NCBI RefSeq assembly: GCF_016860525.1
Contig: NZ_BNEA01000018.1
Span: forward strand, 1-64,000
Source: Streptomyces rubradiris
Lineage (GTDB): Bacteria; Actinomycetota; Actinomycetes; Streptomycetales; Streptomycetaceae
DNA: 64,000 nucleotides
Direction: 5' to 3'
A program made the position numbers and the translations under genes. The notes under the pieces are model-generated. The model was not told the origin of the DNA and did no database searches. It worked only from the letters and a program-made list of their open reading frames with translations. Shown piece after piece: positions 36,858-55,757 of the stretch. How positions within the stretch are numbered: the stretch's first letter is position 1; each line of letters starts with the position of its first letter.

Positions 36858-37286
36858 TCAGGCCAGTCGTACGACGGCCCGGGACATGCCCAGCACCTTC
36901 TGCCCGGTGCAGGTCGCCGTGAGGACGACGCGGACCGTGTTGTCGTCGAGCTTGGCGGTGACTTTGCCGCTGACTTCGATCGCGGTGCCCTTGTCGTCGT
37001 TGGGGACGACGACGGGCCTGGTGAAGCGGACGCCGTACTCGACGACGGCACCGGGGTCGCCCGTCCAGTCGGTGACCACGCGGATCGCCTCGGCCATGGT
37101 GAACATGCCGTGGGCGATGACGTCGGGCAGGCCGACCTCCTTGGCGAACTTCTCGTTCCAGTGGATGGGGTTGAAGTCGCCGGAGGCGCCCGCGTACCGG
37201 ACGAGGGCGGCGCGGGTCACGGGGAAGGACCGCGCGGGCAGCTCGGTGCCGACCTCGACGTCCGCGTACGGAACCTTCGCAGTCAT
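36858..37286 (-). CDS. HadB-type (R)-hydroxyacyl-ACP dehydratase subunit
   Basis: A 142-aa MaoC-like hot-dog protein from ATG 37286, preceded by GAGGAGG. The hydratase-2 motif is complete: [17 protein letters not shown] with catalytic Asp and His, then [10 protein letters not shown]. It matches mycobacterial HadB, which pairs with HadA to dehydrate 3-hydroxyacyl-ACP in fatty-acid or reducing polyketide elongation. The HadA-type gene ends one base upstream, so the heterodimer is co-translated. Streptomyces chromosomes may have a housekeeping copy, so pathway membership is inferred from nearby carboxylase, FabG and KS genes. Confidence 0.88.
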
Positions 37287-37287
37287 C

Positions 37288-37740
37288 TCAGTCCTCCTCT
37301 GCCGCACGCGCCACGAGCGTGGTCCAGGCGGTCACCACGTGCTCGCCCGTCTCGTCGTGCACCTCACCGCGGATGTCCAGGACGTCGTTGCCCGCCAGGG
37401 ACTTGACCGACTCGACGGTGGAGGTGACCGTGAGCCGGTCGCCGGCGCGGATGGGGCGGACGTAGGCGAACCTCTGGTCGCCGTGCACCACGCGGCTGTA
37501 GTCCAGGCCGAGCCGTGGGTCGGTGACGGCCTGCCCGGCGGCCTTGAAGGTGATGCCGAACACGAAGGTCGGCGGGGCGATCACATCGGGGTGACCGAGC
37601 GCCTTCGCGGCCTCCCCGTCCGTGTACGCCGGATGGGCGTCCCCGACCGCCTCGGCGAACTCGCGGATCTTCTCCCGGCCTACCTCGTAGGGCGCGGTGG
37701 GCGGGTAACTCCGCCCCACGAAGGACTGGTCGAGCGCCAT
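37288..37740 (-). CDS. HadA-type dehydratase subunit
   Basis: A 150-aa single hot-dog protein from ATG 37740 with GGGAGG upstream. It has DQSFVGRSYPPTAPYEVGRE at the start and HPDVIAPPTFVFGITFKA, the FAS1-type dehydratase N-terminal-like domain of HadA. It lacks the Asp-x-x-x-x-His catalytic motif, as HadA does, and would bind the acyl chain while HadB provides catalysis. Read first in the hadA-hadB pair. Confidence 0.88.
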   Translation of the reverse strand: MALDQSFVGRSYPPTAPYEVGREKIREFAEAVGDAHPAYTDGEAAKALGHPDVIAPPTFVFGITFKAAGQAVTDPRLGLDYSRVVHGDQRFAYVRPIRAGDRLTVTSTVESVKSLAGNDVLDIRGEVHDETGEHVVTAWTTLVARAAEED

Positions 37741-37760
37741 GGCCCGTACCTCCCGTGGTG

Positions 37761-38834
37761 TCAGTAGCGGCGCAGGACGAAGCCGTCCCGGGTCTCCGTA
37801 CCGCCGCTCTGGAAAAGGACGTTGACGTTGCTGCTGAGGACGTAGTCACCGAACGGCGTGAGGGCCATCGTCGTGGGGGCCACCTCCGGGGACGCCTGTT
37901 CGCTCACGACGCGGGCGCTCTTCCAGCAGTCGTCCGAGCGGAGCTTCATCAGGGCGTCGACGCCGTTGGAGCGGATCGTGTTGGTGGCCGCGTACAAGGT
38001 TCCGTCCGTGCCGAGCGCCATGCCGTCGGTGCCGGGGATACGGCGGTCCAGCTTGATCTCCGTCACGGCGCCGGGCTCGTTCAGCGGGATGCGGAAGAGC
38101 TGGCCGGTGTCGTAGCGGACGGTGATGAGGAAGCCGGCCGGGTGGTAGACGATGCCGTTGACACCGACGTTGGGCATGCCGGTGGAGTCGTAACCGGCGT
38201 CGATCTTCTCGTCGTAGGCGAACGTCGACGCGGTGCCGGACGGGGTCACCTTGAAGATCCTGCCCGTGAAGGAGTCGGTGACGTAGGCGTTGCCCGCCGG
38301 GTCGAGAACGAGGTCGTTGGCCAGGTGGAGGCCCGGCGACTGGCTGAGATCGACGCGCTTCTTCAGGGCCCCTGTGGTCAGGTCGAAGATGGCCACACCG
38401 GCGTAGTGGCCGCGGGTCTGCGGGCTGGAACCGACGCTGAGCAGGGCGTTCGGCCCGGCGTAGACATCGCCGTAGGTCGCCAGAAGGCGGTTGCGGGCCG
38501 GGTCGACCCGGATGCCGCCGGTCGCGATCAGGCTGGGGTCGTCGACCAGGGTGTGCGGTATGCCGTCGGCGCCCACGACGGAGATCGTTCCGTAGCGCAG
38601 GGAACCGACCAGGAACGCGTTCCGGGTCGGGTCCCAGGCGAAGCCCTCGGGGTGGATCGCGTGACCGACGCCCTGGATCACCTCCGGAAACGCGGACACC
38701 GGCGCTGTGCTCCGAGACGGCAGCGGCTCGGCGGACTGGGCCGCCGGGGCGAGGGACAGCGTCACGGCCGCCGCGACGGCGAGAACTCCCGAGGCGGCGA
38801 CGGACGCACGCCAACGGCGCGTGGTTCCAGGCAT
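37761..38834 (-). CDS. Secreted SMP-30/NHL-type beta-propeller protein
   Basis: A 357-aa exported protein from ATG 38834 (AAGGAG upstream). The signal peptide runs RRWRASVAASGVLAVAAAVT to about AQSAEP. The mature part is a six-bladed propeller of the SMP-30/gluconolactonase-like superfamily (repeated forms such as HPEGFAWDPTRNAFLVGS, GIRVDPARNRLLATYGD, NDLVLDPAGNAYVTDSFTG, GTDGMALGTDGTLYAATN). Relatives are lactonases or non-enzymatic binding proteins. A lactonase next to butyrolactone-synthase genes would be noteworthy but is unproven. It sits between hadA and the carboxylase alpha gene. Confidence 0.85.
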   Translation of the reverse strand: MPGTTRRWRASVAASGVLAVAAAVTLSLAPAAQSAEPLPSRSTAPVSAFPEVIQGVGHAIHPEGFAWDPTRNAFLVGSLRYGTISVVGADGIPHTLVDDPSLIATGGIRVDPARNRLLATYGDVYAGPNALLSVGSSPQTRGHYAGVAIFDLTTGALKKRVDLSQSPGLHLANDLVLDPAGNAYVTDSFTGRIFKVTPSGTASTFAYDEKIDAGYDSTGMPNVGVNGIVYHPAGFLITVRYDTGQLFRIPLNEPGAVTEIKLDRRIPGTDGMALGTDGTLYAATNTIRSNGVDALMKLRSDDCWKSARVVSEQASPEVAPTTMALTPFGDYVLSSNVNVLFQSGGTETRDGFVLRRY

Positions 38835-38887: not shown

Positions 38888-40660
38888 TCAGTCCTTGATC
38901 TCGCAGATGGCGGCACCAGGGGTCAGGGAGGCGCCGACTTCGGCGGTCAGGCCCTTGATGGTGCCGGCCTTGTGGGCGTTGAGGGGCTGTTCCATCTTCA
39001 TGGCCTCCAGGACGACGACCAGGTCGCCTTCCTCGACTTCCTGGCCCTCCTCGACGGCGATCTTGACGATGGTGCCCTGCATGGGGGAGGTCAGGGTGTC
39101 GCCGGAGGCGACGGGGCCGGACTTCTTCGCCGCGCGCCGCTTGGGCTTGGCCCCGGCCGCGAGCCCGGTACGGGCCAGGCTCATGCCCAGGGACGCCGGG
39201 AGGGAGACCTCCAGGCGCTTGCCGCCGACCTCGACCACGACCGTCTCACGGGCCGACTCCTCGTCGGCCTCGGCATCGGCCGGGGCGGTGAAAGGCTTGA
39301 TGTCGTTGACGAACTCGGTCTCGATCCACCGGGTATGGACCATGAACGGCTCGTCGGAGCCGGTCAGTTCGGGGGCGAAGGCGGGGTCGGTGACGACCTT
39401 GCGGTGGAAGGGAACGGCGGTGGCCATGCCCTCGACACAGAACTCCTCCAGCGCGCGGGCGGCCCGCTCAAGGGCCTCCTTGCGGGTGCGGCCGGTCACG
39501 ATCAGCTTGGCCAGCAGCGAGTCCCAGGCCGGGCCGATCACACTGCCGGCCTCCACACCCGCGTCCAGCCGCACACCCGGACCGGAAGGTGCCTCAAAGG
39601 CGGTGACGGTGCCGGGGGCGGGCAGGAAACCCCGGCCCGGGTCCTCGCCGTTGATCCGGAACTCGAAGGAGTGACCGCGCAGCACCGGGTCGTCGTAGCC
39701 CAGTTCCTCACCGTCGGCGATACGGAACATCTCGCGCACCAGGTCGATGCCGGCGACCTCCTCGGTGACCGGGTGCTCGACCTGCAGGCGGGTGTTGACC
39801 TCCAGGAAGGAGATCGTGCCGTCCTGCCCGACGAGGAACTCACACGTGCCCGCACCCTCGTAACCGGCCTCCTTCAAGATGGCCTTCGACGCCCGGTACA
39901 GCTCCGCCATCTGCTCCTCGGACAGGAACGGGGCGGGGGCTTCCTCGACCAGTTTCTGGTGGCGGCGCTGCAGGGAGCAGTCACGGGTGGAGACCACGAC
40001 GACGTTGCCGTGCTTGTCGGCCAGGCACTGCGTCTCCACATGCCGCGGCCGGTCCAGGTACCGCTCCACGAAGCACTCACCACGCCCGAACGCGGCGACC
40101 GCCTCACGCACGGCCGAGTCGTACAGCTCGGGGACCTCTTCCAGGGTGCGGGCGACCTTCAGGCCGCGCCCGCCACCACCGAAGGCGGCCTTGATCGCGA
40201 TCGGCAGGCCGTGCTCGCGGGCGAAGGCCACGACCTCGTCCGCACCGCTCACCGGGTCGGGCGTACCGGCGACCAGGGGGGCGCCGGCGCGCTGGGCGAT
40301 GTGCCGGGCGGCGACCTTGTCACCCAGGTCGCGGATCGCCTGCGGGGGCGGGCCGATCCAGATCAGCCCGGCGTCCAGCACGGCCTGCGCGAACTCGGCG
40401 TTCTCCGACAGGAAGCCGTAGCCGGGGTGGATCGCGTCCGCGCCGGACTCGCGGGCGGCGTTCAGGATCTTGTCGATGACGAGATAGCTGGTGGCCGGGG
40501 TGTCACCGCCCAGGGCGAACGCCTCATCCGCGGCACGGACATGCAGAGCGTCCCGGTCCGGGTCGGCGTAGACGGCCACGCTCGCGATCCCGGCGTCCCG
40601 GCAGGCCCGTGCCACGCGGACAGCGATTTCGCCACGGTTGGCGATGAGCACCTTGCGCAC
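38888..40660 (-). CDS. Acyl-CoA carboxylase alpha subunit (biotin carboxylase + BCCP)
   Basis: A 590-aa protein from GTG 40660 after GAGGAGGG. The biotin carboxylase domain (1-450) has [14 protein letters not shown], the glycine-rich ATP loop [13 protein letters not shown], and [16 protein letters not shown] linker rich in Lys/Ala leads to the biotinyl domain, with biotin Lys in EAMKMEQPL. It is very like the AccA1/A2 subunits shared by acetyl- and propionyl-CoA carboxylases in Streptomyces. It could serve the beta subunit encoded at 49.8 kb. It may also be a housekeeping gene that lies here by chance. Confidence 0.93.
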
Positions 40661-40732: not shown

Positions 40733-41560
40733 TCAGGAGGCATTGGGAAGTTGTTCGACGGCCGCCCCGTACTGCCAGCCCAACGGGTTTTGGAGCATAC
40801 TCTCGTCTCCGGACAGGATGACCTGCTGTATCTGCTGAACGGCGCGGGACGGATCCAGGCCGAGTTCCTCCTGGAGTATTCCGCGGAGTTCCTGGTAGGC
40901 GTGCAGGGCGTCACCACGGCGGCCGCTCAGGCAGAGGGCGGTGATGAGCTGGCCGTGCAGCCACTCGTTGAGCGGATGGCGGACGACGAGGCTTCTGAGT
41001 TCCGCCGCGAGCCCGCCGTGCCGGCCGAGTCGCATGTCCGCCTCGATCCGTTGTTGCAGCACCCGCATGTACATCTCCTGGAGATGCCGCACGTGCTGCA
41101 TCAGCACGGGACCGCAGCTGACATCGGTCAGGACGCCCCCGCTCCACATCTCCAGCGCCCGGGACAGCACCCGGGACGCCTCACCGGCGTTGCCGGCGTG
41201 CAGCAGGGTCTCCCCCTGCCGGGCCAGCCGGAGAAACGCCTCCGCGTCGACCTGCTCGTGTACCGCGCGCAGTACGTAGCCGGCGGACCACGTGTCGATC
41301 AGGTTGACCCCGGCGACCCCGGCGATCTCCTGGCCGAGGATTTTCCGAAGGTGGTAGACATGGGTGCGCACCGTGGAAAGCGCGGTCTTCGGCGGGTTCT
41401 TGCCCCACAGTTCGTCGACCAGGATTCCGTGGGGCACGACCGACCCGGCCTGAAGAACCAGAAGAGAAAGCAGTTGACGGACTTTCGGGCCACGCGGAAT
41501 CGAAATCTTCTCGTTGTCGACTCGTATTTCCAAAGGCCCCAGAACGCTGAACTTCAGCAC
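40733..41560 (-). CDS. SARP-family pathway activator
   Basis: A 275-aa Streptomyces antibiotic regulatory protein from GTG 41560, five bases after GGGGGGAT. The N-terminal OmpR-like winged helix (LGPLEIRVDNEKI, KVRQLLSLLVLQAG, VDELWGKNPPKTALSTVRTH, HLRKIL) is followed by the bacterial transcriptional activation domain (AFLRLARQG through YQELRGILQEELGLDPS). It is the short form, like ActII-ORF4, with no ATPase. SARPs bind repeated heptamers near -35 and switch on biosynthetic operons. Likely targets are the acyl-chain genes of region 5, and it would be expected to answer to the butyrolactone system in region 6. Confidence 0.95.
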   Translation of the reverse strand: MLKFSVLGPLEIRVDNEKISIPRGPKVRQLLSLLVLQAGSVVPHGILVDELWGKNPPKTALSTVRTHVYHLRKILGQEIAGVAGVNLIDTWSAGYVLRAVHEQVDAEAFLRLARQGETLLHAGNAGEASRVLSRALEMWSGGVLTDVSCGPVLMQHVRHLQEMYMRVLQQRIEADMRLGRHGGLAAELRSLVVRHPLNEWLHGQLITALCLSGRRGDALHAYQELRGILQEELGLDPSRAVQQIQQVILSGDESMLQNPLGWQYGAAVEQLPNAS

Positions 41561-41660: not shown

Positions 41661-42512
41661 TCAGAGCACATCGAAGGATGCCACCGTGGTTTCCCCGCCC
41701 GGCCGCCCGCCGTCGGAGAGCACCGCCACCGAGGTCATGACGTGGTTGCCGGGAAGCAGCCGTACCCAGCCGATGAGCCGGCAGCCGGCGGGCAGCAGGC
41801 CACGGGCGACGTGTGCGTGGAGTCGGCCGTCGGCCACCCGCAACTCGACGTCGTGGAAGACGGGTGCGGGCGTGCCGAGCGCGGACAGAGCCTTGTAGAC
41901 GGCCTCTTTGGCGGAGAACACGACGGACAGCCGGCTCTCCGGGCGGCGCGCCCGCCGCACCCACTCGCGCTCGTGCGGAGTGCACACCAACCGTGCGGCG
42001 TCCGGGCCGAGCCGATCGGTGCGCTCCAGGTCCGTGCCGGTCGCGATCACCCGAGGATGGACGCTGACGAGGCTCACCCCTATGTGCCCCACGCAGTGAC
42101 TGATGGAGCCGCGCACCCCGGCCGGGAACACGGGCCGTCGCCCGTCCCGCAGCACCGGCCCGCCGATCCCCAGCGCACCCAACGCCCGTGCCGCCGCGGT
42201 CCGGCCCGCGATGAAGTCGGGCCGCCGGGCCGGTGGCAGAGCGCCTGCCAGCCGCCGCTCCTCGGGATGCAGAGTCACCGGCACGTGAGGCTCGTCGAGC
42301 CGGCACAGCGCCAGGGCGGTGGCCGGGAGCGGCCCGAGCAGGAGGGTGTCGGTGAGGCCGGAGGCGGTGGTGCCGGTACGGGCGGCACTCGTCGCAGCGG
42401 AGGGCCGGCCGGGGCCGGCCGGCGCCCCCGGCCGCGCGGGGACCTTGTGGCCGACGGGCCCGGTGGGGGCCGTCCGGGTGCGCGGGCCGGGGCCGTGGGT
42501 GAGGAGTGTCAT
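41661..42512 (-). CDS. Sfp/EntD-type phosphopantetheinyl transferase
   Basis: A 283-aa enzyme from ATG 42512 with AGGAGC upstream. After an unusually long, Ala/Pro/Thr-rich N-terminus (about 60 residues) come the family motifs RPVFPAGVRGSISHC, the Mg-binding ATGTDLE and FSAKEAVYKAL. It transfers 4'-phosphopantetheine from CoA to the conserved serine of carrier proteins. In this window the targets are the ACP at 53.1 kb and the NRPS thiolation domains. It lies downstream of the MFS exporter but is separated from it by a strong terminator. Confidence 0.93.
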   Translation of the reverse strand: MTLLTHGPGPRTRTAPTGPVGHKVPARPGAPAGPGRPSAATSAARTGTTASGLTDTLLLGPLPATALALCRLDEPHVPVTLHPEERRLAGALPPARRPDFIAGRTAAARALGALGIGGPVLRDGRRPVFPAGVRGSISHCVGHIGVSLVSVHPRVIATGTDLERTDRLGPDAARLVCTPHEREWVRRARRPESRLSVVFSAKEAVYKALSALGTPAPVFHDVELRVADGRLHAHVARGLLPAGCRLIGWVRLLPGNHVMTSVAVLSDGGRPGGETTVASFDVL

Positions 42513-42592: not shown

Positions 42593-42692
42593 ATCCCGCG
42601 GTCCGGCCGAAGGGCCGCGGTGTTCGCGGGGGCTCAGAGCGAATCCCGCGGTCCGGCCGAAGGGCCGCGGTGTTCGCGGGGGGCTCAGAGCG
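42593..42692. repeat. 50-bp direct duplication covering the exporter 3' end
   Basis: Units 42593-42642 and 42643-42692 differ by one inserted G. The right copy contains the last codons and stop (42685-42687) of the MFS gene, and the left copy repeats them downstream as non-coding DNA. Each unit also contains a hairpin-forming CCGCGGTCC and GGGCCGCGG pair, so the duplication doubles a terminator. Confidence 0.92.
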
Positions 42693-44289
42693 TCGCGTCG
42701 GCGGACTCCCGCAGCGCGCTCCGGTCGGCCGGCTCGGCGGGAGTGTCGGCCGGTGCCTCGGCCGCCGGGCGGTCGGTGAGGATGAGATGCAGGACGACCG
42801 CGCCGGCCAGGCAGACCACGACGGTGCCCCACAGCACGATCTGGAAGCCGTGCGTGTAGCCCTGTCCGAGGAAGTCGGCGAGGGCGTCGCGGTTCGCGGA
42901 CGGCGCCTGGTCGACCACGGCTTCGAGGTTGCCGCTGGAGACGCTGTCGGTGACGCTGCGGGGAGTGAGGTTCGTGCCCTCGGTGTAGCGGCCCAGACCG
43001 TCGGCGAGGCGCTGCTGGAGCAGGGACATCAGGGCGGCGACCATGCCGGCGACCGCGACCGCCTCGGTGGCCAGGCGGATGGTGTTGAACATGCCGCTGG
43101 CCATGCCGACCTTGTTCGGCGGGACGGTGCTCACCGCGGCGCCGTCCATCAGGCCGTAGATCAGGCCGACACCGGTGCCGACCAGCAGCAGCGGACCGGT
43201 GAGCCCGAGCAGGCCGATGCCGGGGTGGACGGTGGTCAGCCAGGCCAGTCCGGCGGCGACGAGAACGAGGCTGCCGCTGAGAATGGGCCGCATCGACACA
43301 CCCGCCTGCACCAGGCGCCCGGAGACCAGCGGGAAGGCCAGCACCGGAGCGGTGAGCAGCAGCATCGTCAGGCCGGCCGCGCTGTCGGTGAGCCCGTTGG
43401 CGCCGACCAGGTACGAGGGCAGCAGCACCATCAGGCCGACGAAGCCGAAGGAGACGGCGGTGGCGAGCAGGTTGACCGCCATGAACCGCGGTTCGGCGAA
43501 CAGGGAGAGGTCGAACATCGGGAACCGCTGGCGGCGCTCGATCAGGACGAACCCGGCCAGCAGCAGCACGCAGCCGGCGAACAGGCCCAGCACCTCGGCG
43601 CTGCCCCAGCCCCAGACCGGGCCCTGGATGACGCCGAGGGTGAAGCAGAACAGGGCGAGGGTGAAGGTCACGGTGCCGGCCCAGTCCACGGCGTGCGCTT
43701 CGGGGTCCTTGGACTCCTGCACCAGCTTCAGTCCGAACATGGACGCCACGGCGATGGCGAACTGCACCCAGAAGATGGAGCGCCAGCCCAGCTCGGAGAC
43801 GAGCAGGCCCGAGCTGGTCGGGCCGATGGCGAGACCGGCGCCGATGGTGACGCCGACGAACGCGAACGCCTTGGTGCGGGCGGCGCCGTGGAACATGTTC
43901 GCCATGACCGACACGCCGGCGGTCATCATGGCGGCGGCGGCCACACCGGCCACGGCCCGGGCGACGTTCAGCAGCAGGACGTCGGTGGCGAGCGCACCGA
44001 TCAGGGCGGAGACGCCGTACGTCGCGACGCCGAAGGAGAACACCCGCTTGCGGCCGATACGGTCGGCGATCGACCCGGCCGCCATCATGAAGCTGGCGGC
44101 GGTGATGTTGTAGGCGTTGACGACCCAGTTCAGCGACACCACTCCGGCGTCGAGGTCGCGGCCCATCGCGGGGAGCGCGACCGGTGCGCTGCTGAGGCCG
44201 TAGGGGACGACGAACACGGCCAGGCACAGGGCGAAGATGGTGAGGCCCGCGCGGGGCGGCGCCTCGGGGGTGGTGGCGGCGGCAGCCAT
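42685..44289 (-). CDS. DHA2-family MFS drug exporter
   Basis: A 534-aa transporter from ATG 44289 (GGAGAGC upstream) with about 14 hydrophobic helices, the count of the DHA2 (QacA/EmrB) family. It contains LNWVVNAYNITAASFMM, the loop 2-3 motif GSIADRIGRKRVF and the antiporter-type motif in helix 5 (GVTIGAGLAIGPTSSG). These drive proton-coupled efflux of amphiphilic drugs. The divergent TetR gene at 45.9 kb and the downstream phosphopantetheinyl transferase suggest it exports the product of region 5. Confidence 0.93.
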   Translation of the reverse strand: MAAAATTPEAPPRAGLTIFALCLAVFVVPYGLSSAPVALPAMGRDLDAGVVSLNWVVNAYNITAASFMMAAGSIADRIGRKRVFSFGVATYGVSALIGALATDVLLLNVARAVAGVAAAAMMTAGVSVMANMFHGAARTKAFAFVGVTIGAGLAIGPTSSGLLVSELGWRSIFWVQFAIAVASMFGLKLVQESKDPEAHAVDWAGTVTFTLALFCFTLGVIQGPVWGWGSAEVLGLFAGCVLLLAGFVLIERRQRFPMFDLSLFAEPRFMAVNLLATAVSFGFVGLMVLLPSYLVGANGLTDSAAGLTMLLLTAPVLAFPLVSGRLVQAGVSMRPILSGSLVLVAAGLAWLTTVHPGIGLLGLTGPLLLVGTGVGLIYGLMDGAAVSTVPPNKVGMASGMFNTIRLATEAVAVAGMVAALMSLLQQRLADGLGRYTEGTNLTPRSVTDSVSSGNLEAVVDQAPSANRDALADFLGQGYTHGFQIVLWGTVVVCLAGAVVLHLILTDRPAAEAPADTPAEPADRSALRESADATL

Positions 44290-47112: not shown

Positions 47113-47817
47113 TCACTGGCCCATGCCGATACCGCCGCCGACCGGGACCGCCGCCCCGGTCACATAGGAGGCGCCGTCGCCGGCGAGGAACGTGACGACG
47201 TCGGCGACCTCCTGCGGGGTGCCGGTGCGGCGCAGCGGGGTCTGGCCCAGCAACTGGGCGCGCCGCTTGTCGGTGACGGCCTGGATCATGTCGGTCTCGA
47301 TCAGTCCGGGCGTGACCATGTTGACCGTGATGTTCCGCGAGCCCAGTTCCCAGGCGAGCGACCGGGTCAGGCCGAGCATGCCGGACTTGGACGCGGCGTA
47401 GTTGGACTGTCCGGGAGAGCCGAGGAAGCCCATGATCGACGAGATGAAGACGATACGGCCCCACTTGGCGCTGATCATGGAGCGGGACACCAGGCGGGCC
47501 ATCCGGAAGGACCCGACGAGGTTGGTCCCGATGACGTCCTCGAAGTCCTCCTCGCGCATGGTGGGGGCCAGCGCGTCGCGGGTGATGCCGGCGTTGGCCA
47601 CCAGCACGCCCACCGGCCCGTACTGCGCCTCGACCTCGTTCACGGCGCGGCGCGCCGCCTCGGGGTCGCGTACGTCGCAGCGCACGCCGAACAGACCCTC
47701 GGGGGCCTCCCCGCTGCGGTGGGTGATCGCGACCTTGTCGCCGTTCTCGGCGAAGCTGCGCGCGATGGTCAGGCCGATCCCCCGGTTTCCTCCGGTGACC
47801 AGAACGGTGCGTGACAT
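47113..47817 (-). CDS. FabG/MabA-type 3-oxoacyl-ACP reductase
   Basis: A 234-aa short-chain dehydrogenase from ATG 47817 (CAGGAGAGC upstream). TVLVTGGNRGIGLTIARSFA, GLFGVRCDVRD, VANAGITRD, the catalytic Ser in ISSIMGFLG, YAASKSG (Tyr/Lys) and the ending VPVGGGIGMGQ closely follow FabG1 (MabA) of mycobacteria and Streptomyces FabG. It reduces 3-oxoacyl-ACP with NADPH, and would act with HadA/HadB to give enoyl-ACP. It lies 12 bases downstream of the HAD gene in one operon. It could alternatively reduce a butenolide intermediate made through AfsA. Confidence 0.92.
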   Translation of the reverse strand: MSRTVLVTGGNRGIGLTIARSFAENGDKVAITHRSGEAPEGLFGVRCDVRDPEAARRAVNEVEAQYGPVGVLVANAGITRDALAPTMREEDFEDVIGTNLVGSFRMARLVSRSMISAKWGRIVFISSIMGFLGSPGQSNYAASKSGMLGLTRSLAWELGSRNITVNMVTPGLIETDMIQAVTDKRRAQLLGQTPLRRTGTPQEVADVVTFLAGDGASYVTGAAVPVGGGIGMGQ

Positions 47818-47829: not shown

Positions 47830-48495
47830 TCAGGCGGCCGCCGAGCCCATGCCGGCCGGGCGGGCGAGACGGCGGGCCAGTGCGGCCGCCGCGGTGTCGG
47901 TGTCGGTGAAGTGGACGGCCTGCCAGCCGGCGGCCTCGGCCCCGACGCAGTTGGCCTCGATGTCGTCGACGAGGACGCACTCCCCGGGCGCGACCCCCGC
48001 CATCTCGGCGGCCGCCTCGAAGATCCCGCGCTGCGGCTTGCGGACGCCGACCCGGAAGGACAGGGCGAGCCCGTCGAAGAGCCCGTCGGGCGGGACCATG
48101 CGCCGCCAGTGCCGGTCCCAGGCGGGCGGCATGTTGGACAGCAGGCCGACGAACACCCCCTGGTCGTGCAGGGTACGGAGATGGTCCAGCCAGGCGTGGT
48201 TGGTCTCGCGCCCTGCGAACCAGCGGTCACCGAAGCCGGTCAGATCGGCTTCCACCCCGAGTTCGCGCAGCCGGACGTTCATCCGGGCGGCCCACTCGTC
48301 CTCGGTGAGCAGCGGGGTGTCCAGCGGCGCCATCAGGTCACCGCCGTACGGCGCCGCCACCGCGGCCATGGCCGTCCGGAAGGCGTCCGCGGGGATTCCT
48401 GTCCGGCGGCAGAAGGTCTCCAGGTCGCGCGGGATCGGCGGGGTGAGCACCCCGCCGAAGTCCGTCCACACCGCGCGTACGGGCGGCCGGGTCAC
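47830..48495 (-). CDS. HAD-superfamily phosphatase
   Basis: A 221-aa HAD hydrolase (subfamily IA) from GTG 48495, overlapping the AfsA stop by four bases. Motif I is VWTDFGGVLTP (nucleophile Asp), motif II GLLSN, motif III Lys in RKPQRGIFEAA, and motif IV VLVDDIEANC. A phosphatase coupled to an AfsA homologue fits removal of the phosphate from the butenolide phosphate that AfsA-type condensation with dihydroxyacetone phosphate yields. The substrate is inferred from context only. Confidence 0.9.
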   Translation of the reverse strand: MTRPPVRAVWTDFGGVLTPPIPRDLETFCRRTGIPADAFRTAMAAVAAPYGGDLMAPLDTPLLTEDEWAARMNVRLRELGVEADLTGFGDRWFAGRETNHAWLDHLRTLHDQGVFVGLLSNMPPAWDRHWRRMVPPDGLFDGLALSFRVGVRKPQRGIFEAAAEMAGVAPGECVLVDDIEANCVGAEAAGWQAVHFTDTDTAAAALARRLARPAGMGSAAA

Positions 48496-49505
48496 GACGC
48501 CGGCCCCTTGGCCGTGCGGGCCCCGGAGTGCGCCGGGGTGAAGTCCAGTACGACGCGGCCGGCTTCGGCGCCGTCCTGCTCGAAGACGACCGCGCAGGCG
48601 GTTCGGCCGCCGGCGGCCGAACCGCCCGGTGCGAGGCGGGCCGTGGCCACCAGGGGCGAGTCCAGCTCGGCGAACCGGGTGAAGTCCGCGGTGCAGCCGG
48701 TCACGGTCGCGTCGGTCGGGACGCCCGCGAGGTGGGCGAGCTGACGCGCGGCCTCGGTGAGCACCATGGCCGGGATGTGGTCGTAGGTGTGGTCGAACAG
48801 GCTCTTGTTCTCGAACAGCGGCTCCACCTGCGCGGAGACCGTGTCGCCCAGGTGGATGGGCTCGCCGAGCACCACATTGGCGAGGTTGTGGCGGCCCACG
48901 TCGGCCGCGTCGGCCGGGCGGCTGCGCAGCGCGTCCAGCAGGTCGGTGGTGAGCGGCGGGGTGGACCGGCGTTGCAGGTAGCGCAGCTTCCCGTAGTCGG
49001 CGCTCTTCGCCGTACCGACGTCGATGCGGGTACGGGCCGCCTCCCGGCCTGCGATGCTCAGGACGACCGAGGAACTCACGCCGCGCAGACGGCCGTTGCG
49101 CGCGGTCACCGGCGTGACCGCGCCCGCCAGCTCCAGCTCCCCGGGCCGGTCCCCCGGCGTGAGGACCCGCGGGTCCCCGATCCTGATCGACCAGCTGTTG
49201 ACCAGGAACGTGGTGTGCCGGGAGATGCCCAGCTGGCGGTGCGAGGCGGCGACACCCGCCTGCCGCGCGGCCTCCAGCAGCAGCAGGAAGTCATAGGTCA
49301 CCGGCGTGCGCACGTGGTCGCTGAAGTAGGCGTGCCCGATGGGAAGTTGCGCGCCCGCCAGGAAGTCCTCCGGCCCCGTCTGCACGAGATCGGTGACCAG
49401 TACCTCCGAGACCGCCGCCCGGTGCACCAGGGTGCGGTCGATGGTACGGGCGAAGGTCAGTGCGGGGGCCGGTTCCGCCCCGGTCTTTTCGATGGACGTT
49501 GTCAT
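48492..49505 (-). CDS. AfsA/ScbA-family acyltransferase (operon copy)
   Basis: A 337-aa A-factor synthase homologue from ATG 49505 (AAGGAG upstream). Two tandem hot-dog repeats are visible: LVHRAAVSEVLVTD with LLLLEAARQAGV, and HLGDTVSAQV-containing DHIPAMVLTEAARQLAHLAG. AfsA transfers a beta-ketoacyl group to dihydroxyacetone phosphate, the key step to gamma-butyrolactones. In contrast to regulatory afsA genes, which lie beside receptor genes, this one heads an operon with HAD phosphatase, FabG and SnoaL-like genes, and no receptor is adjacent. That points to a biosynthetic role. No TTA codon was noticed. Confidence 0.92.
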   Translation of the reverse strand: MTTSIEKTGAEPAPALTFARTIDRTLVHRAAVSEVLVTDLVQTGPEDFLAGAQLPIGHAYFSDHVRTPVTYDFLLLLEAARQAGVAASHRQLGISRHTTFLVNSWSIRIGDPRVLTPGDRPGELELAGAVTPVTARNGRLRGVSSSVVLSIAGREAARTRIDVGTAKSADYGKLRYLQRRSTPPLTTDLLDALRSRPADAADVGRHNLANVVLGEPIHLGDTVSAQVEPLFENKSLFDHTYDHIPAMVLTEAARQLAHLAGVPTDATVTGCTADFTRFAELDSPLVATARLAPGGSAAGGRTACAVVFEQDGAEAGRVVLDFTPAHSGARTAKGPAS

Positions 49506-49767: not shown

Positions 49768-51369
49768 ATGACCGCTTTGGATGACCGTCCCTTCGCCCCG
49801 CCGGCCCCACCGGCCGGTCCGGACCTGCAGGGGCGTACCGCCGAGCTGCTGCGCCTCAGGCAGGCGGTGCGCGGCGGCCCGGGCGCGGCGGCGACGCAGG
49901 CCCAGCACGCGCGCGGCAAGCTGACCGTGCACGAGCGGCTTCAGCTGCTGTTCGACGAGGGCACGTTCACCGAGATCGAGGGGCTGCGCCGGCACCGGGC
50001 CAGTGGCTTCGGCCTGGAGGACCGCCGCCCGCACACCGACGGCGTGGTCACCGGCTGGGGCCGGGTGCACGGACGCACCGTCTTCGTCTACGCCCATGAC
50101 TTCCGTATCTTCGGCGGCTCGCTGGGCGAGTCCCACGCCGAGAAGATCCACAAGATCATGGATATGGCCGACGCGGCCGGCGCGCCGCTGGTGAGCCTCA
50201 ACGACGGGGCCGGCGCCCGTATCCAGGAGGGCGTCTCCGCGCTCGCCGGGTACGGCGGGATCTTTCGCCGCAACGTGCGTGCCTCCGGCGTGATTCCGCA
50301 GATCAGCGTGATGCTCGGACCGTGCGCCGGCGGCGCGACCTACTCGCCGGCGCTGACCGACTTCGTGTTCATGGTGCGCGGCATCTCCCAGATGTTCATC
50401 ACCGGCCCGGACGTGGTGGAGGCGGTGACGGGCGAGCGGGTGAGCCACGAGCAGCTCGGCGGCGCCGACCTGCATGCCGCGATCTCGGGCGCGGCCGCCT
50501 TCGCGTACGACGACGAGGAGTCCTGCCTGGAGGACGTGCGCTACCTGCTGTCGCTGCTGCCGTCCAACAACCGCGAGCTGCCGCCGGCCGCCGCGCCCGC
50601 CTCCCGGCTGAACACCCTGGACGAGGAGCTGCTGCACCTGGTGCCCGCCGACCCCAACCAGCCGTACGACATGCGCGAGGTGATCGCGCGCCTGGTGGAC
50701 GACTCGGAGTTCCTGGAGGTCCACGAGCGGTGGGCGCCGAACCTGCTGTGCGCGCTGGCCCGCATCGACGGGCAGACCGTCGGCCTGGTGGCGAACCAGC
50801 CCCGGCACCTGGCCGGGGTGCTGGACATCGAGGCCTCCCAGAAGGGTGCCGCGTTCATCCAGACCTGCGACGCCTTCAACATCCCCCTGGTGACGCTGGT
50901 GGACGTGCCCGGCTTCCTGCCCGGCACCGCCCAGGAGCACGGCGGGATCATCCGCCACGGCGCGAAGCTGCTCTACGCCTACTGCAATGCCACCGTCCCG
51001 CGGGTCCAGGTCATCCTGCGCAAGGCGTACGGCGGCGCGTACATCGTCATGGACTCGCGCTCCATCGGCTGCGACCTGTCGTACGCCTGGCCGACGAACG
51101 AGATCGCGGTGATGGGGGCCGAGGGCGCGGTCAACGTCATCCACCGGCGGGCCGTCGCCGCGGCCGAGGACCCGGAGGCCGCCCGGCGGGAGCTGACGCA
51201 GGAGTACCGGGAGACGCTGATGCACCCGTACTACGCGGCGGAACGGGGTCTGGTCGACGACGTGATCGACCCGCGCACCACCCGCTCGGTCCTCGCGGAG
51301 GCGCTGCGCGTGCTGCGCACCAAGCAGGAGCAGCTGGTGCCCCGCAAGCACGGCAATCCGCCGATGTGA
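49768..51369 (+). CDS. Acyl-CoA carboxylase beta subunit (AccB/PccB type)
   Basis: A 533-aa carboxyltransferase from ATG 49768. Both crotonase-like halves are present: SLNDGAGARIQEGVSALAGY and GPCAGGATYSPALTDF for the N-half, VDVPGFLPGTAQEHGGIIRH and the final AWPTNEIAVMGAEGAVNV for the C-half. At the position that decides substrate in S. coelicolor AccB/PccB (residue 422 there, Ile versus Asp) this protein has Ile426 in GGAYIVMDS. That predicts acetyl-CoA as well as propionyl-CoA use, hence malonyl-CoA supply. It pairs with an alpha subunit (38.9 kb) and the epsilon subunit just downstream. Confidence 0.93.
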   Translation: MTALDDRPFAPPAPPAGPDLQGRTAELLRLRQAVRGGPGAAATQAQHARGKLTVHERLQLLFDEGTFTEIEGLRRHRASGFGLEDRRPHTDGVVTGWGRVHGRTVFVYAHDFRIFGGSLGESHAEKIHKIMDMADAAGAPLVSLNDGAGARIQEGVSALAGYGGIFRRNVRASGVIPQISVMLGPCAGGATYSPALTDFVFMVRGISQMFITGPDVVEAVTGERVSHEQLGGADLHAAISGAAAFAYDDEESCLEDVRYLLSLLPSNNRELPPAAAPASRLNTLDEELLHLVPADPNQPYDMREVIARLVDDSEFLEVHERWAPNLLCALARIDGQTVGLVANQPRHLAGVLDIEASQKGAAFIQTCDAFNIPLVTLVDVPGFLPGTAQEHGGIIRHGAKLLYAYCNATVPRVQVILRKAYGGAYIVMDSRSIGCDLSYAWPTNEIAVMGAEGAVNVIHRRAVAAAEDPEAARRELTQEYRETLMHPYYAAERGLVDDVIDPRTTRSVLAEALRVLRTKQEQLVPRKHGNPPM

Positions 51370-51457: not shown

Positions 51458-51709
51458 GTGATCCCGCAGCGGCCCAGTGGAAGCGAGGCACCCACCATGG
51501 ACACGGCACCCACCGCTCCGCCCGCCCTGCGCGTGGTGCGGGGTGACCCCACCCCCGACGAACTGGCCGCGCTCACCGCCGTCGTACTGGCACGGGGCGC
51601 TGCCGGGCCGCCCCCCGGCGACCCGGTCACCGCGCCCGTACCGGCCCCGGGCTGGCTGCGGCCGGGCCGCCACCATCCGGCGGGGGCGTGGCGGACGTTT
51701 CCGCGGTGA
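51458..51709 (+). CDS. Acyl-CoA carboxylase epsilon subunit
   Basis: A small protein of 83 aa from GTG 51458 (GGAGG seven bases upstream), or 70 aa from ATG 51497. The core LRVVRGDPTPDELAALTAVV and the C-terminal WLRPGRHHPAGAWRTFPR fit AccE/PccE, which stabilises the alpha-beta carboxylase complex in actinomycetes. The 88-base gap before it is filled with imperfect repeats of ACCGGAACCGGAC. Confidence 0.85.
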   Translation: MIPQRPSGSEAPTMDTAPTAPPALRVVRGDPTPDELAALTAVVLARGAAGPPPGDPVTAPVPAPGWLRPGRHHPAGAWRTFPR

Positions 51710-51850: not shown

Positions 51851-52891
51851 TCAGCGGGGTGCGGGAGCCTCGACCACCGCGCAGGACCAGGTGAAGCCGG
51901 CGCCCGCGTTGAGCAGCAGGCCGATGTCACCGGGGCCGAGCGCGGAACGGCGCAGCAGCTCGTGCAGCCCCGCGGGCAGGTCGCCCGTGCCCAGGTGCCC
52001 GGTGTCGCTCCCCCAGTCCACCGGCCGGGCGGCGACCAGTTCGTTCAGCGTCGGGATCCACGCGTTCCGCAGCGTCTTGAGCCCGAGCCGGGGCAGCAGG
52101 ACGAACCGGATGCGCGGGTCGTCCGCGGCGAGGCCGGCGTCCCGCAGCGCGCCCTGGACCACGCACCGGATCATCTCGCGGTTGATCTTCTTGAACGGGG
52201 CGACCCCGTGGTCGCGCAGGTAGTCCCGCTTGGTGCGGCGCATATCGACGACGGGCGAGTTCTCCCGGGGCAGCCGCGCGAACGGGTCCATGCCCCGGTG
52301 CATGGCCTCCAGATGCGGGGCGGCGGCGGTGTGCAGGGCCCGCAACAGCAGGGGGTCGCCCGCGTCGGCCGGCTGCCTGAGCAGCACCGCGGTGGCCGCG
52401 TCCCCGTAGGCGGCGCCGTAGTCGCTGCGCCACCGGTCGAATCCGGGCGCGGTGAACCGGTCGGCGGTGGTGACCAGGGCGTGCCGGGAGCCCTCGGCCA
52501 GGGAGAGCCGGGCGACGGCCAGTTCCAGGGCGGCCGCGCCACCGTTGCAGATCTGCTGGATCCCGACCGGCACGGTGTTGTGCGCGCCGATCTGGTGGGC
52601 GATGTAGTGCGCCGGCGACCACAGGTCGTGGCCCTGGTAGTGCATCCACGCGTGCAGCAGGAGCGTCACGTCGGCGGCCGCCACGCCGCTGCCGTGCAGC
52701 ACCTGCCGGGCGGCCAGCACGGCCATCTCGGGCGGGGAGATGTCGTCGGCGACCGGCAGCCGGGGGTGTCCCAGGTCGCGCGCCACGTTCCCCTCGACGC
52801 GCTGCTCGGCGACAGCGCTGTGCGCGCCGTCCCTCTTCGGCGGCAGCCACAGGGCCGCCGCGGCGATGCCCACCGACGCGGTCGTTCTCAT
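51851..52891 (-). CDS. KSIII-like acyltransferase/ketosynthase
   Basis: A 346-aa thiolase-fold protein from ATG 52891 after GAGGGGGG. The acylated Cys115 is in QQICNGGAAALELA. The usual FabH His (HQAN) is replaced by LPRLGLK, and the Asn position by GSDTGHLGTGDL. This combination is found in a secondary-metabolite subfamily of KSIII-like proteins (related to CerJ/ChlB6-type acyl-transferring enzymes). It may thus transfer an acyl group to oxygen or to the ACP rather than condense. It is divergent from the ACP-KS-CLF operon, sharing a 220-base promoter region. Confidence 0.85.
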   Translation of the reverse strand: MRTTASVGIAAAALWLPPKRDGAHSAVAEQRVEGNVARDLGHPRLPVADDISPPEMAVLAARQVLHGSGVAAADVTLLLHAWMHYQGHDLWSPAHYIAHQIGAHNTVPVGIQQICNGGAAALELAVARLSLAEGSRHALVTTADRFTAPGFDRWRSDYGAAYGDAATAVLLRQPADAGDPLLLRALHTAAAPHLEAMHRGMDPFARLPRENSPVVDMRRTKRDYLRDHGVAPFKKINREMIRCVVQGALRDAGLAADDPRIRFVLLPRLGLKTLRNAWIPTLNELVAARPVDWGSDTGHLGTGDLPAGLHELLRRSALGPGDIGLLLNAGAGFTWSCAVVEAPAPR

Positions 52892-53111: not shown

Positions 53112-53390
53112 ATGTCGGACAACCTGGGCAAGGAACTCTCCCCCGAGCTGCGCACCCGCATCCGGGAGATCGTCGCAGACGTGCTGGAGGTGTCCTCCGG
53201 CGAGGTCGACGAACAGCACAGCTTCGTCGAGGACTTCGACGCCGACTCCCTGCTGATCATCGAGATGTTCTCCCGCTTCGAGAAGCAGCTGGGCATCGAG
53301 ATACCTCAGGAGGAGCTGGTCGACCTCGACGACCTCGGCACCGCCTACGAACTGATCGCACGTCACACCACCGCCGTCGCGCATGTCTGA
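53112..53390 (+). CDS. Acyl carrier protein
   Basis: A 92-aa ACP from ATG 53112. The phosphopantetheine Ser46 is in DADSLLIIEM. Helix 1 (ELRTRIREIVADVLEVSSGE), EEFDADS-like acidic helix 2 and IPQEELVDLDDLGTAYELI follow the fatty-acid/type II polyketide pattern. The stop overlaps the ketosynthase start by eight bases, a tight coupling that suggests a dedicated ACP. Its modifying enzyme is probably the Sfp-type transferase at 42 kb. Confidence 0.95.
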   Translation: MSDNLGKELSPELRTRIREIVADVLEVSSGEVDEQHSFVEDFDADSLLIIEMFSRFEKQLGIEIPQEELVDLDDLGTAYELIARHTTAVAHV

Positions 53391-54606
53391 GCAGGGGCTG
53401 CGCCGCGTCGCGGTCACCGGTCTCGGCGCGGTGAGCAGCCTCGGCACCGGTATCGAGGCGTTCACCGCGGCCGTCCGCGAGGGCCGCAGCGGCATCACCG
53501 ACATCAGCTCGTTCGACAGCACCGGCTTCCGGCACACCCGGGCGGGCGAGGTGCACGGCTTCCGGCCGCAGGACCACCTGGAGCGGCTGCCGGCCGAGAA
53601 GTGGGGCCGCAGCAGCCAGTTCGCCGCCGCGGCCGCCCGGCTCGCCGTGCGGGACGCGGGCTGGGACACCGACGCCCTGTCGGCCGCCCGGGCGGGCAGC
53701 GCCATGGGCACCACCAACGGGGAGGCGCGGGCCTTCCAGGAACTGACCGAGCAGTGGCTGGCGCAGGGCATCGGCGGGATCGACGGGGATCTCGCCGCCC
53801 GCGCCTCCGCGGACCGCATCGCGGCCGCCGTCAACACCGAACTGGGCCTGCGCGGCGAGGCGCAGACGTTCGGCACCGCCTGCTCGGCGAGCAACTACGC
53901 CATCGGGTACGGGTTCGACCTCATCCGCAGCGGCGCGGCCGACGTCATGATCGCCGGTGGTGCCGACGCGGTGAACCGCGCCACCCACGCGGGCTTCCAC
54001 CGCCTGGGCGCCATCGCCCCCGACCTGTGCCGCCCGTTCGACGAGGACCGGGGCGGCATCATGACCGCGGAGGGCGGCGCGGCCCTCGTCCTGGAGTCGT
54101 GGGACAGCGCCGTCTCACGCGGGGCACGCATCTACGCCGAGGTGCTGGGCTACGGCCTGACCTGTGACGCCAAGCACCCGACCCAGCCGGACCGGGACGG
54201 TATCGCCGAGTGCATCCGCCGGGCGCACCGCGATGCCGGGGTCAAGCCGGACGACGTCGATTACGTGTGCGCACACGGCACCGGGACGGCCGCCAACGAC
54301 TCCACCGAGGTCGCGGCGGTGCGCGAGGTCTTCGGCGACCGGATACCGCCGATCAGCTCCATCAAGTCGATGCTCGGCCACACCATGGGAGCCGCCAGCG
54401 GCTTCGGCGCGCTGGCCTGCTGCGCGGCCCTGTACGAAGGGTTCCTGCCGCCGACGGCGACGGTCCGCTCGGTGGATCCGGCGCTCGGCCCGGACCTGGA
54501 CTGCGTGCCCGGCCGGGCACGCCCCGCCCGGCCGAGGATCGTGGAGAACCACGGGTTCGCCTTCGGCGGCAACAACGCCATCGTGATGCTGGGGAGGCCC
54601 GAATGA
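53383..54606 (+). CDS. Beta-ketoacyl-ACP synthase (KS alpha)
   Basis: A 407-aa FabF-type condensing enzyme from ATG 53383, translationally coupled to the ACP. The Cys-His-His triad is complete: Cys167 in GTACSASNYA, His in AHGTGTAANDS and His in SMLGHTMGAASG. GFAFGGNNAIVML closes the fold. With the next gene it forms a KS/CLF-like pair. The best guess is elongation of malonyl-ACP to a defined chain. Sequence alone does not tell aromatic, polyene or fatty product, but no cyclase or aromatase of aromatic type lies nearby except the SnoaL-fold protein. Confidence 0.94.
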   Translation: MSEQGLRRVAVTGLGAVSSLGTGIEAFTAAVREGRSGITDISSFDSTGFRHTRAGEVHGFRPQDHLERLPAEKWGRSSQFAAAAARLAVRDAGWDTDALSAARAGSAMGTTNGEARAFQELTEQWLAQGIGGIDGDLAARASADRIAAAVNTELGLRGEAQTFGTACSASNYAIGYGFDLIRSGAADVMIAGGADAVNRATHAGFHRLGAIAPDLCRPFDEDRGGIMTAEGGAALVLESWDSAVSRGARIYAEVLGYGLTCDAKHPTQPDRDGIAECIRRAHRDAGVKPDDVDYVCAHGTGTAANDSTEVAAVREVFGDRIPPISSIKSMLGHTMGAASGFGALACCAALYEGFLPPTATVRSVDPALGPDLDCVPGRARPARPRIVENHGFAFGGNNAIVMLGRPE

Positions 54607-55757
54607 GCGGCACCACCGAGTCCACCGCCGTACGGATCACGGGTTACGGGGTGCTCAGCGCGGCCGGTGTCGGCGGCAAGGCCCTGTACGAGGCCGTGCG
54701 TTCGGGCGCGTTGCCGCTGGGTGACGACGGCGCCCAGGCCCTGGACGGACAGCCGGCGCCACCGGGCGTACGGCTGCTGCCGGTGCCGGACTTCGAGCCC
54801 CGGGAGCACCTCGGACGCAAGGGACTGCGCGCCCTGAGCCGTACCACCACGCTCGGCATGGTGGCGGCGGAGCTGGCACTGGCCGGTCTGCCGGAGCCCG
54901 GCCGGCCCGGGGAACGCGCGGACACCGGCGTGGTCCTCGGTACCAGCACGGGCAGTGCCCGGGCCTTCGCGGAGTTCTTCCGCGAGAGCTACGTGGCGGA
55001 GCGCCCGTACCTGGTGAGCCCGGCCCTGTTCCCGGGGCTGCTGCTGAACCACGGGGCGAGCCAGGTGGCCATGCGGCACTCCTTCACGGGCCTGAACGCC
55101 TCGCTGGCCGGCGGGCAGATCTCCGCCCTGTCCGCGCTGCGCTACGCCCGCAACGCCCTGCTGACCGGCCGGGCCGCCCGGCTGCTGACGGGAGGTGTGG
55201 AGGAGCTGAGCGCGCACACGGCCTGGGCCTGGCAGCGCGGTGGTGCCCTGGGCGAGCGGCCGGCGCTGGGCGAGGGAAGTGCCGTGTTCGTCATGGAGAC
55301 GGCGGACGACGGCACCGGGCGTGCCCCGGGCGGGTCTCTGGCCGAACTGGCCGCCTGCGAGGTGGCCTTCACTCCGCTGGACGAGGGGCCGCACGCGGTG
55401 GCGGCGGCGCTCGCCCGCTGTGTCGAGGACGCGCTGCGGGCCGGTGGCGCCGAGCCCGGCGACATCGGCGTCGTCTCGGCCGGGGCGAGCAGCGGCCCCG
55501 GCTGGAGCGCGGTGGAGGCCCGTGGCCGCCGCCGGGCGCTGGCCGGGCACGAACCCGAGGTACTGCGGGTACAGGACGTGCTCGGGGAGACCTACAGCGC
55601 CAGTGGCGCCCTGCAGCTGGCCGCGCTGCTCGCGCACTGGGAGGACGGTGCCCCGGCTGCGGCCGGCGGCGCCGCCGACTGGGGCCTGGTCACCTCCGTC
55701 GGCCACGACGGATCGGTGGGCGCGGCCCTGCTGCGCCGGTCGTCAGCCACCGGCTGA
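54603..55757 (+). CDS. Chain-length-factor-like ketosynthase (no catalytic Cys)
   Basis: A 384-aa KS-fold protein whose ATG overlaps the KS stop (ATGA). The region that holds the active Cys in KS enzymes reads GLNASLAGGQIS, so Cys is replaced by Ser or Ala, and the His motifs are lost. It is more diverged and shorter than the KS alpha. The arrangement ACP-KS-KS' with a Cys-less partner is that of type II polyketide heterodimers, where the partner sets chain length. The C-terminal 15 bases overlap the convergent response regulator gene. Confidence 0.88.
   Translation: MSGTTESTAVRITGYGVLSAAGVGGKALYEAVRSGALPLGDDGAQALDGQPAPPGVRLLPVPDFEPREHLGRKGLRALSRTTTLGMVAAELALAGLPEPGRPGERADTGVVLGTSTGSARAFAEFFRESYVAERPYLVSPALFPGLLLNHGASQVAMRHSFTGLNASLAGGQISALSALRYARNALLTGRAARLLTGGVEELSAHTAWAWQRGGALGERPALGEGSAVFVMETADDGTGRAPGGSLAELAACEVAFTPLDEGPHAVAAALARCVEDALRAGGAEPGDIGVVSAGASSGPGWSAVEARGRRRALAGHEPEVLRVQDVLGETYSASGALQLAALLAHWEDGAPAAAGGAADWGLVTSVGHDGSVGAALLRRSSATG

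Follow-up and report, generated by a model that had tools for sequence, protein, structure and literature searches.

Gene content of the locus

The window analyzed here, a stretch of 64,000 nucleotides of Streptomyces rubradiris (positions 1 to 64,000 of contig NZ_BNEA01000018.1), comes from a genome of 9.05 Mb, in which its contig (C18) measures 147.7 kb. It carries a cluster in which a homologue of AfsA, here termed AfsA1, lies near the predicted genes of a type II polyketide synthase (PKS). Genes were assigned by Pfam and NCBIfam profile scans of the window proteins, with PDB sequence matches for selected proteins. All of the genes named in a preliminary description of this DNA were present and correctly placed in the profile scans. 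The extent of approximately 19 kb given there holds for those genes but not for the limits of the cluster, as comparison with S. toyocaensis places the conserved block at 35075-61334. S. toyocaensis carries the whole of it, from an NAD-binding gene (35075) to an epimerase-like gene (61334), at 82-98% protein identity; the block thus also takes in the regulators, a two-component pair, a ScbR-type receptor and a second AfsA. The predicted chain-building genes, the two AfsA genes and the receptor are as follows:

36858..37286, minus strand: HadB-type (MaoC) dehydratase subunit (PF01575; NCBIfam HadB 155 bits, below the cut-off of 203)
37288..37740, minus strand: HadA-type dehydratase subunit (PF13452; NCBIfam HadA 145 bits, below the cut-off of 180)
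38888..40660, minus strand: acyl-CoA carboxylase alpha, biotin carboxylase plus biotin carboxyl carrier protein (Pfam; 98% to two chromosomal copies)
41661..42512, minus strand: 4'-phosphopantetheinyl transferase (PF17837, PF01648)
47113..47817, minus strand: FabG-type ketoreductase, a short-chain dehydrogenase/reductase (SDR) (NCBIfam NF009466 241.7 bits, cut-off 222; PDB 3-oxoacyl-ACP reductase; Pfam PF13561)
47830..48495, minus strand: HAD phosphatase, HAD-IA type (PF00702; TIGR01509 49.9 bits, cut-off 29.4)
48492..49505, minus strand: AfsA1, proposed phosphorylated-butenolide synthase and chain-release enzyme (PF03756; trees; double-hotdog model)
49768..51369, plus strand: acyl-CoA carboxylase beta, probably acetyl-CoA type (best PDB match acetyl-CoA carboxylase beta chain, 846 bits)
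51458..51709, plus strand: acyl-CoA carboxylase epsilon (PF13822)
51851..52891, minus strand: ketosynthase III (KSIII)-like putative acyltransferase, CerJ/DpsC type, C115/H299/D304 (PDB matches, residue alignment)
53112..53390, plus strand: acyl carrier protein (ACP) (PF00550)
53383..54606, plus strand: ketosynthase (KS) of a predicted highly reducing type II PKS (best PDB match 6kxd_A; KS tree)
54603..55757, plus strand: chain length factor (CLF), the Cys-less partner (best PDB match 6kxd_B)
58590..59291, minus strand: ScbR-family autoregulator receptor (NCBIfam 206 bits, cut-off 150)
59440..60387, plus strand: AfsA2, probable ordinary ScbA/BarX signalling synthase (380.7 bits, cut-off 200; receptor-linked side of both AfsA trees)

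The preliminary description had proposed a set of genes dedicated to chain building and centred on an AfsA homologue, a proposal now supported by the gene content, by linkage of AfsA1 to one KS clade and by its separation from receptor-linked AfsA proteins.

A ketosynthase pair of the polyene type

The best PDB matches of the KS and CLF were the two chains of one entry, 6kxd_A (405 bits) and 6kxd_B (134 bits), as against 198 and 57 bits for the actinorhodin KS and CLF. Entry 6kxd was assigned to ishigamide because its companion, 6kxf, is named as the ishigamide ACP-KSCLF complex in a review (PMC7949117). Residues C167, H298 and H333 of the KS were invariant in an alignment of 17 KS, and in a pairwise alignment the CLF had Ala at the Cys position and had lost both His residues. 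By its sequence, the cluster is thus placed among the predicted highly reducing (polyene-type) type II PKSs, with a KS/CLF nearest the ishigamide pair: it has an ishigamide-type KS with its Cys, a Cys-less CLF, and predicted ketoreductase and dehydratase genes (FabG-type and HadA/HadB-type). It is very improbable that the cluster belongs instead to the usual aromatic type II PKSs and encodes a SnoaL-type cyclase and a FAD hydroxylase. SnoaL-like and FAD_binding_3 genes do occur in the window, but the KS/CLF resemble the polyene subgroup more closely than the actinorhodin pair, FabG and HadAB genes are present, no aromatase or cyclase family besides the SnoaL-like one was found among the genes scanned, and the FAD gene of the window has only a partial match in S. 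toyocaensis.

The KSIII-like protein is taken as 346 amino acids (aa), the 481-aa open reading frame (ORF) probably starting too early. Its best PDB matches were of the DpsC/CerJ/ChlB3 kind (with structure 4xs7 presumably being DpsC), and C115, H299 and D304 aligned with the Cys-His-Asp set of CerJ, consistent with a CerJ/DpsC KSIII-like acyltransferase. DpsC has Ser in place of Cys, whereas the window protein keeps the Cys.

Predicted reduction, dehydration and malonyl-CoA supply

The FabG-type SDR passed the cut-off of one NCBIfam FabG subfamily (NF009466), and its best PDB match was a 3-oxoacyl-ACP reductase. No dedicated enoyl-reductase family was seen among the window genes scanned, but the best Pfam match of the SDR, PF13561, is titled enoyl-ACP reductase. 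A supply of malonyl-CoA is suggested by the carboxylase beta subunit, whose best match was the beta chain of an acetyl-CoA carboxylase (846 bits). At the position of the Asp422/Ile substrate rule for carboxylases, the window protein has Ile, aligned with Ile in 1xnw and Val in 3iav; as both of these structures are of mutants, this gives only a hint.

In the same genome, chromosomal copies were found of HadA (84-85%) and HadB (89%) as a pair and of carboxylase alpha (two copies, 98%), while the nearest chromosomal genes to carboxylase beta and FabG were at 71% and 58%. The supply genes of the cluster have the appearance of copies recruited from primary fatty-acid metabolism. A conserved housekeeping block of carboxylase, HadAB and aldo/keto reductase genes, which the preliminary description had put forward as an explanation that would undo its proposal, was looked for in this genome only and was not found. 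The chromosomal HadAB and carboxylase alpha copies lie apart from each other, with no aldo/keto reductase or NHL match within flanks of 3-5 kb, and the explanation was rejected for this genome. Self-resistance by duplicated HadAB or carboxylase was also considered, and nothing was found in its support.

AfsA1, AfsA2 and the HAD partner

AfsA1 is a stand-alone protein of 337 aa whose gene overlaps the HAD gene by 4 bases. It matched PF03756 at 129.6 bits (cut-off 24) and has R81, H89, R175, D242, H243, Q255, E280 and Q310, residues that did not vary among 28 AfsA proteins drawn from the two types, placing it in the AfsA-fold phosphorylated butenolide synthase family. The predicted structure is a double hotdog (pLDDT 90.4); no PDB relative was found by sequence. 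AfsA1 has no fusion to a modular PKS and so differs from the PKS-fused phosphorylated butenolide synthase (PBS) domains of the gladiostatin type. Against the ScbA/BarX profile NF041195 (cut-off 200), AfsA1 scored 196.5 bits and AfsA2 380.7 bits. The ScbR receptor adjoins AfsA2 and lies 9 kb from AfsA1. AfsA2, beside its receptor, is to all appearance an ordinary signalling gene, and AfsA1 looks like a part of the PKS machine rather than a stray hormone gene.

AfsA1 follows one ketosynthase clade across genera

A scan of named genomes with the alignment of 17 KS gave 26 loci from 202 pattern matches, onto which the window proteins were mapped. Loci were fetched through KS or AfsA matches and are not a random sample; they include 20 + 20 regions picked from the matches of the genus scan described below, with stronger AfsA matches only. 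AfsA1-type genes lay beside KS/CLF in Streptomyces, Nocardiopsis, Actinorugispora, Marinitenerispora, Allonocardiopsis and Amycolatopsis. The preliminary description had known of no described cluster with this gene set; indeed no characterized one was found in our searches, but the set is not unique, as it forms a family across several genera. Two layouts recur. In the first, the CLF is followed by AfsA and HAD; ten mapped relatives have this order on the same strand, with two genes intervening in two of the ten. In the second, AfsA-HAD-FabG-SnoaL is divergent to ACP-KS-CLF (the window and the Nocardiopsis loci L021 and L023). The HAD genes belong to two families, PF00702 and PF12710, mostly one per layout, which suggests that phosphatases were recruited to this slot on more than one occasion. 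HadA/HadB directly adjoin KS/CLF in L183, L185, L187 and L191.

A KS tree of 49 rows contained one clade of 32 (support 100/100), which held all 26 rows with an AfsA1-type gene within 12 kb; none of the 17 rows outside the clade had one, in stretches of mostly 9-10 kb on each side. KS proteins shorter than 330 aa or below 52% identity, identical copies, and loci L121-L180 were dropped from this tree and from the HAD-linkage counts. Three clade members with no AfsA1 nearby (L013, L191 and L193) are on short or broken contigs, and their genomes carry AfsA1-HAD on a different contig. In a carefully searched tree of 56 AfsA rows, 18 KS-linked AfsA1-type proteins and L063 (S. jumonjinensis) formed a clade of 19 (99/97), and the split between receptor-linked and KS-linked rows had support of 97/93. 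A quick tree of 82 rows, made with a short search, put all 22 receptor-linked rows and four unlabelled ones on one side (SH-aLRT 92). On its other side were 56 rows, 28 linked to KS/CLF, 13 to another KS, 12 to HAD only and three to neither, with none linked to a receptor. In these trees, made of homologue rows without any characterized AfsA (no SRB/SAB gene), a row was labelled as receptor-linked whenever a receptor was near, even with a KS or HAD nearby, as for AfsA2 of the window and others. AfsA rows shorter than 250 aa were dropped before counting, and two with long branches were left out of the 82-row tree, L087 (no receptor) and L039 (receptor-linked, and on the receptor side of the 56-row tree at 83/56).

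Among rows with more than 3 kb on both flanks, a ScbR-like receptor lay within 3 kb of 0/40 AfsA1-type genes versus 14/16 AfsA2-type genes. A HAD gene was within 3 kb of 28/40 AfsA1-type genes, and within 12 kb of 38/40 AfsA1-type versus 4/16 AfsA2-type genes. Among the 28 KS/CLF-linked AfsA1-type rows, 27 had HAD within 3 kb, and the 28th ends with its contig.

The genus scan covered 392 Streptomyces genomes, sampled evenly out of a larger group (KS E ≤1e-140, AfsA1 E ≤1e-36). It found the KS in 38/392 and AfsA1 in 51/392, with both in 20 (Fisher p 3e-10, uncorrected for kinship), so that 18 KS-bearing and 31 AfsA1-bearing genomes lacked the other at the cut-offs used. The two genes were within 10 kb in 14 of the 20 genomes bearing both. 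This co-occurrence is not chance.

These counts bear on two other explanations. AfsA1, HAD and FabG might be a signalling operon making an SRB/SAB-like butenolide from a primary fatty-acid intermediate, inside an unrelated polyene PKS cluster that it perhaps switches on. Signals of this kind are made by SrrX together with a phosphatase and a dehydrogenase and by SabA together with SabP and SabD (PMC7756379 and PMC12301235), and the cluster has SARP, TetR and ScbR regulators. Nevertheless, we regard this explanation as unlikely: the lack of receptor linkage and the pattern of following the KS, in which AfsA1-HAD tracks the KS clade across genera and stands after the CLF on the same strand in the ten mapped relatives, speak against it, and a canonical AfsA2/ScbR pair is already in the cluster. 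Alternatively, two building blocks might be joined, with AfsA1/HAD making a hydroxymethyl-butenolide from a primary beta-ketoacyl thioester and the KSIII-like enzyme placing the PKS polyene on its hydroxyl. Enzymes of the CerJ class transfer acyl groups to hydroxyls or to carrier proteins, and the KSIII-like protein has the CerJ Cys-His-Asp set. However, a KSIII-like match was not seen in L021, L183-L187 and L189, all of which keep KS, CLF, AfsA and HAD, and this arrangement seems distinctly improbable.

In two of the AfsA1 matches from the genus scan (G244:C165:71473-72450 and G049:C3:167183-168175), the matched region spans a single TGA. About 558-aa FAD proteins near KS/CLF in L183, L184, L187 and L189 resemble, by eye, carotenoid-desaturase-type oxidoreductases. 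An AfsA1-type cluster kind without a CLF match was seen in 20 kb stretches of Streptomyces (L202, L204-L211, L214 and L216), with a KSIII-like protein, another KS (at 35-38% to that of the window), a FabG-like SDR, HAD, an aldo/keto reductase, a FAD oxygenase and, in most cases, an ORF of ACP size.

Proposed pathway

We think it rather probable that the stand-alone AfsA1 releases the type II PKS chain through dihydroxyacetone phosphate, giving a polyenoyl hydroxymethyl-butenolide or furan. What is observed is the gene content, the conservation of active-site residues and of linkage, and the split between AfsA1 and receptor-linked AfsA; from these we infer all substrates, the order of steps and the product as follows. 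The carboxylase would supply malonyl-CoA, the phosphopantetheinyl transferase would arm the ACP, and the KSIII-like acyltransferase would handle the starter. The KS/CLF would then elongate the chain, with FabG reducing and HadA/HadB dehydrating each unit; with no dedicated enoyl reductase recognized, the chain is proposed to stay polyunsaturated. AfsA1 would intercept the last beta-ketoacyl-ACP and esterify dihydroxyacetone phosphate, the ester would close to a phosphorylated 2-acyl butenolide, and the HAD protein would strip the phosphate. Tailoring of the product may fall to reductases, the hydrolase and the SnoaL-like protein, and its export to the MFS protein. The preliminary description had offered a polyene or a butenolide; both products are kept here, while the choice between them gives way to what is more likely one pathway, a polyene-type PKS with AfsA/HAD release and capping.

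Proteins of the AfsA family make phosphorylated butenolides from beta-ketothioesters and dihydroxyacetone phosphate. The release step is modelled on modular PKSs, whose AfsA-like domains join beta-ketoacyl chains and dihydroxyacetone phosphate to phosphorylated butenolides, as described in PMC7756379 and PMC7756420. The former gives condensation of 3-ketothioesters with dihydroxyacetone phosphate by an AfsA-like domain in vitro, and the latter the loss of gladiofungin upon deletion of the AfsA domain. A type II PKS may, by analogy, use the same release.

Several observations weigh against this pathway. For the SDR, the top Pfam family carries the name enoyl-ACP reductase, though its NCBIfam and PDB matches are FabG. 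AfsA1 is only 3.5 bits short of the ScbA/BarX cut-off, and the signalling butenolides of S. rochei and S. ansochromogenes are likewise made by an AfsA together with a phosphatase and a dehydrogenase (PMC7756379 and PMC12301235). AfsA1 is missing from the stretches seen of clade members L195 (S. mashuensis), L217 and L218, which means that the PKS can do without it. The CLF of L195 is followed by a gene with an acyltransferase domain (12629-13645; PF00698, FabD-like by eye). HadA/HadB, the carboxylase genes and the KSIII-like gene are each missing from some relatives. Where HadA/HadB are missing, a housekeeping dehydratase could serve, in line with the proposal for the cma pathway, which is reported to use 'a dehydratase from fatty acid synthase' (PMC10777205). 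Lastly, the scheme would require AfsA1 to hold off until the chain is full.

Relation to known systems

Polyene-making type II PKSs are a recent find, and for some of them chain release is unsettled. The cma study invokes 'an unknown thioesterase' for release (PMC10777205). Ishigamide-type PKSs (Iga11/Iga12, with the ava and cma relatives) share with the window the KS/CLF type, a stand-alone ACP and reductase, and the reduce-dehydrate logic. In contrast, HadA/HadB, carboxylase subunits and a KSIII-like acyltransferase are encoded in the window itself, and AfsA1 was absent from the stretches examined at the 17 KS loci outside its clade (the ishigamide cluster itself was not mapped). The gladiostatin/gladiofungin trans-AT PKSs have the release to a phosphorylated butenolide by condensation with dihydroxyacetone phosphate that we propose here, and a phosphatase gene in the cluster. 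There, however, the AfsA-like PBS domain is terminal in a modular type I PKS, whereas AfsA1 is encoded on its own, next to the genes of a type II PKS. The SRB/SAB genes (SrrX-SrrP-SrrG and SabA-SabP-SabD) have a like set of AfsA, phosphatase and dehydrogenase or ketoreductase; unlike them, AfsA1-type genes accompany KS/CLF and have no neighbouring ScbR-type receptor.

No description of a type II PKS with AfsA release was found in the open-licence literature searched. Both halves, the polyene type II PKS and AfsA release, are known, and their combination appears not to be. The cluster may therefore make a natural-product class so far undescribed. More broadly, we give an even chance to AfsA proteins having two trades, with receptor-linked hormone synthases on one side. 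On the other would be a biosynthetic, HAD-partnered branch that releases chains from free-standing KS systems (KS/CLF type II PKSs and the CLF-less KSIII/ACP/other-KS kind), giving undescribed polyenoyl butenolides or furans in many actinomycetes. If true, a discrete AfsA release enzyme would be an added release mechanism, the predicted product class would be a polyene joined to a glycerol-derived C3 ring, and annotation would call for caution, as AfsA homologues would not all be hormone synthases.

Other genes of the block, relatives and surroundings

The remaining genes of the conserved block are as follows:

35075..35716, minus strand: NAD(P)-binding (NmrA-like) protein, end of the conserved block (PF13460; 85% in S. 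toyocaensis, 66% in the S. goshikiensis plasmid)
35830..36810, minus strand: aldo/keto reductase, putative tailoring (PF00248; conserved in S. toyocaensis and S. goshikiensis)
37761..38699, minus strand: NHL-type beta-propeller protein (homologues in the same cluster kind in genomes G279, G220, G095, G338 and G145)
40733..41437, minus strand: SARP regulator (PF03704 and PF00486)
42685..44289, minus strand: predicted MFS exporter (PF07690)
44417..45700, minus strand: alpha/beta-hydrolase-like protein (no Pfam match; S. goshikiensis orthologue annotated alpha/beta hydrolase; weak PDB esterase match, E 0.011)
45931..46464, plus strand: TetR regulator (PF00440)
46539..46988, minus strand: SnoaL-like (NTF2-fold) protein (PF07366)
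55743..56459, minus strand: response regulator (profile scan)
56497..57414, minus strand: histidine kinase (profile scan)
57977..58615, plus strand: TetR regulator (profile scan)
60399..61334, plus strand: NAD-dependent reductase/epimerase adjoining AfsA2 (NCBIfam; conserved in S. toyocaensis)

The NHL protein was found in 18/392 genomes, in this cluster kind in six (that of the window and the five listed) and elsewhere in 12; matches of at least 69% occurred only together with the cluster (G279, S. goshikiensis and S. toyocaensis). Most of the block is carried by a 603 kb linear plasmid of S. goshikiensis, with HadA whole and HadB as two overlapping matching pieces; AfsA2 was not found in the block-bearing stretch of this plasmid. 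In S. jumonjinensis, the block is split across contigs (L013 and L063). Outside the window, ParA/ParB-like genes and a D5-type primase (C18:67038-77861) suggest that the contig of the window is likewise a plasmid.

Upstream of the block, positions 15164-33962 hold 3-amino-4-hydroxybenzoate (3,4-AHBA)-type genes (3-dehydroquinate synthase II, DeoC aldolase), a Rieske oxygenase and reductase, an MFS gene, an ATP-grasp ligase, and a PALP and ornithine-cyclodeaminase pair reminiscent of 2,3-diaminopropionate synthesis; two large ORFs at 19746-29431 look, by eye, like nonribosomal peptide synthetases. These upstream genes (15-34 kb) were set aside as a separate cluster, because they are not beside the S. 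toyocaensis copy of the block, where no GriH/GriI match was seen in the 11 kb past it. L197 and L220 join GriH/GriI to KS/CLF, yet have no AfsA and look like ava/cma-type clusters. Farther along the contig, at C18:79875-88578, lies a second signalling island with TetR genes, a FAD oxygenase-like gene, a SARP gene, a receptor-linked AfsA and, by eye, P450-like and epimerase-like ORFs.

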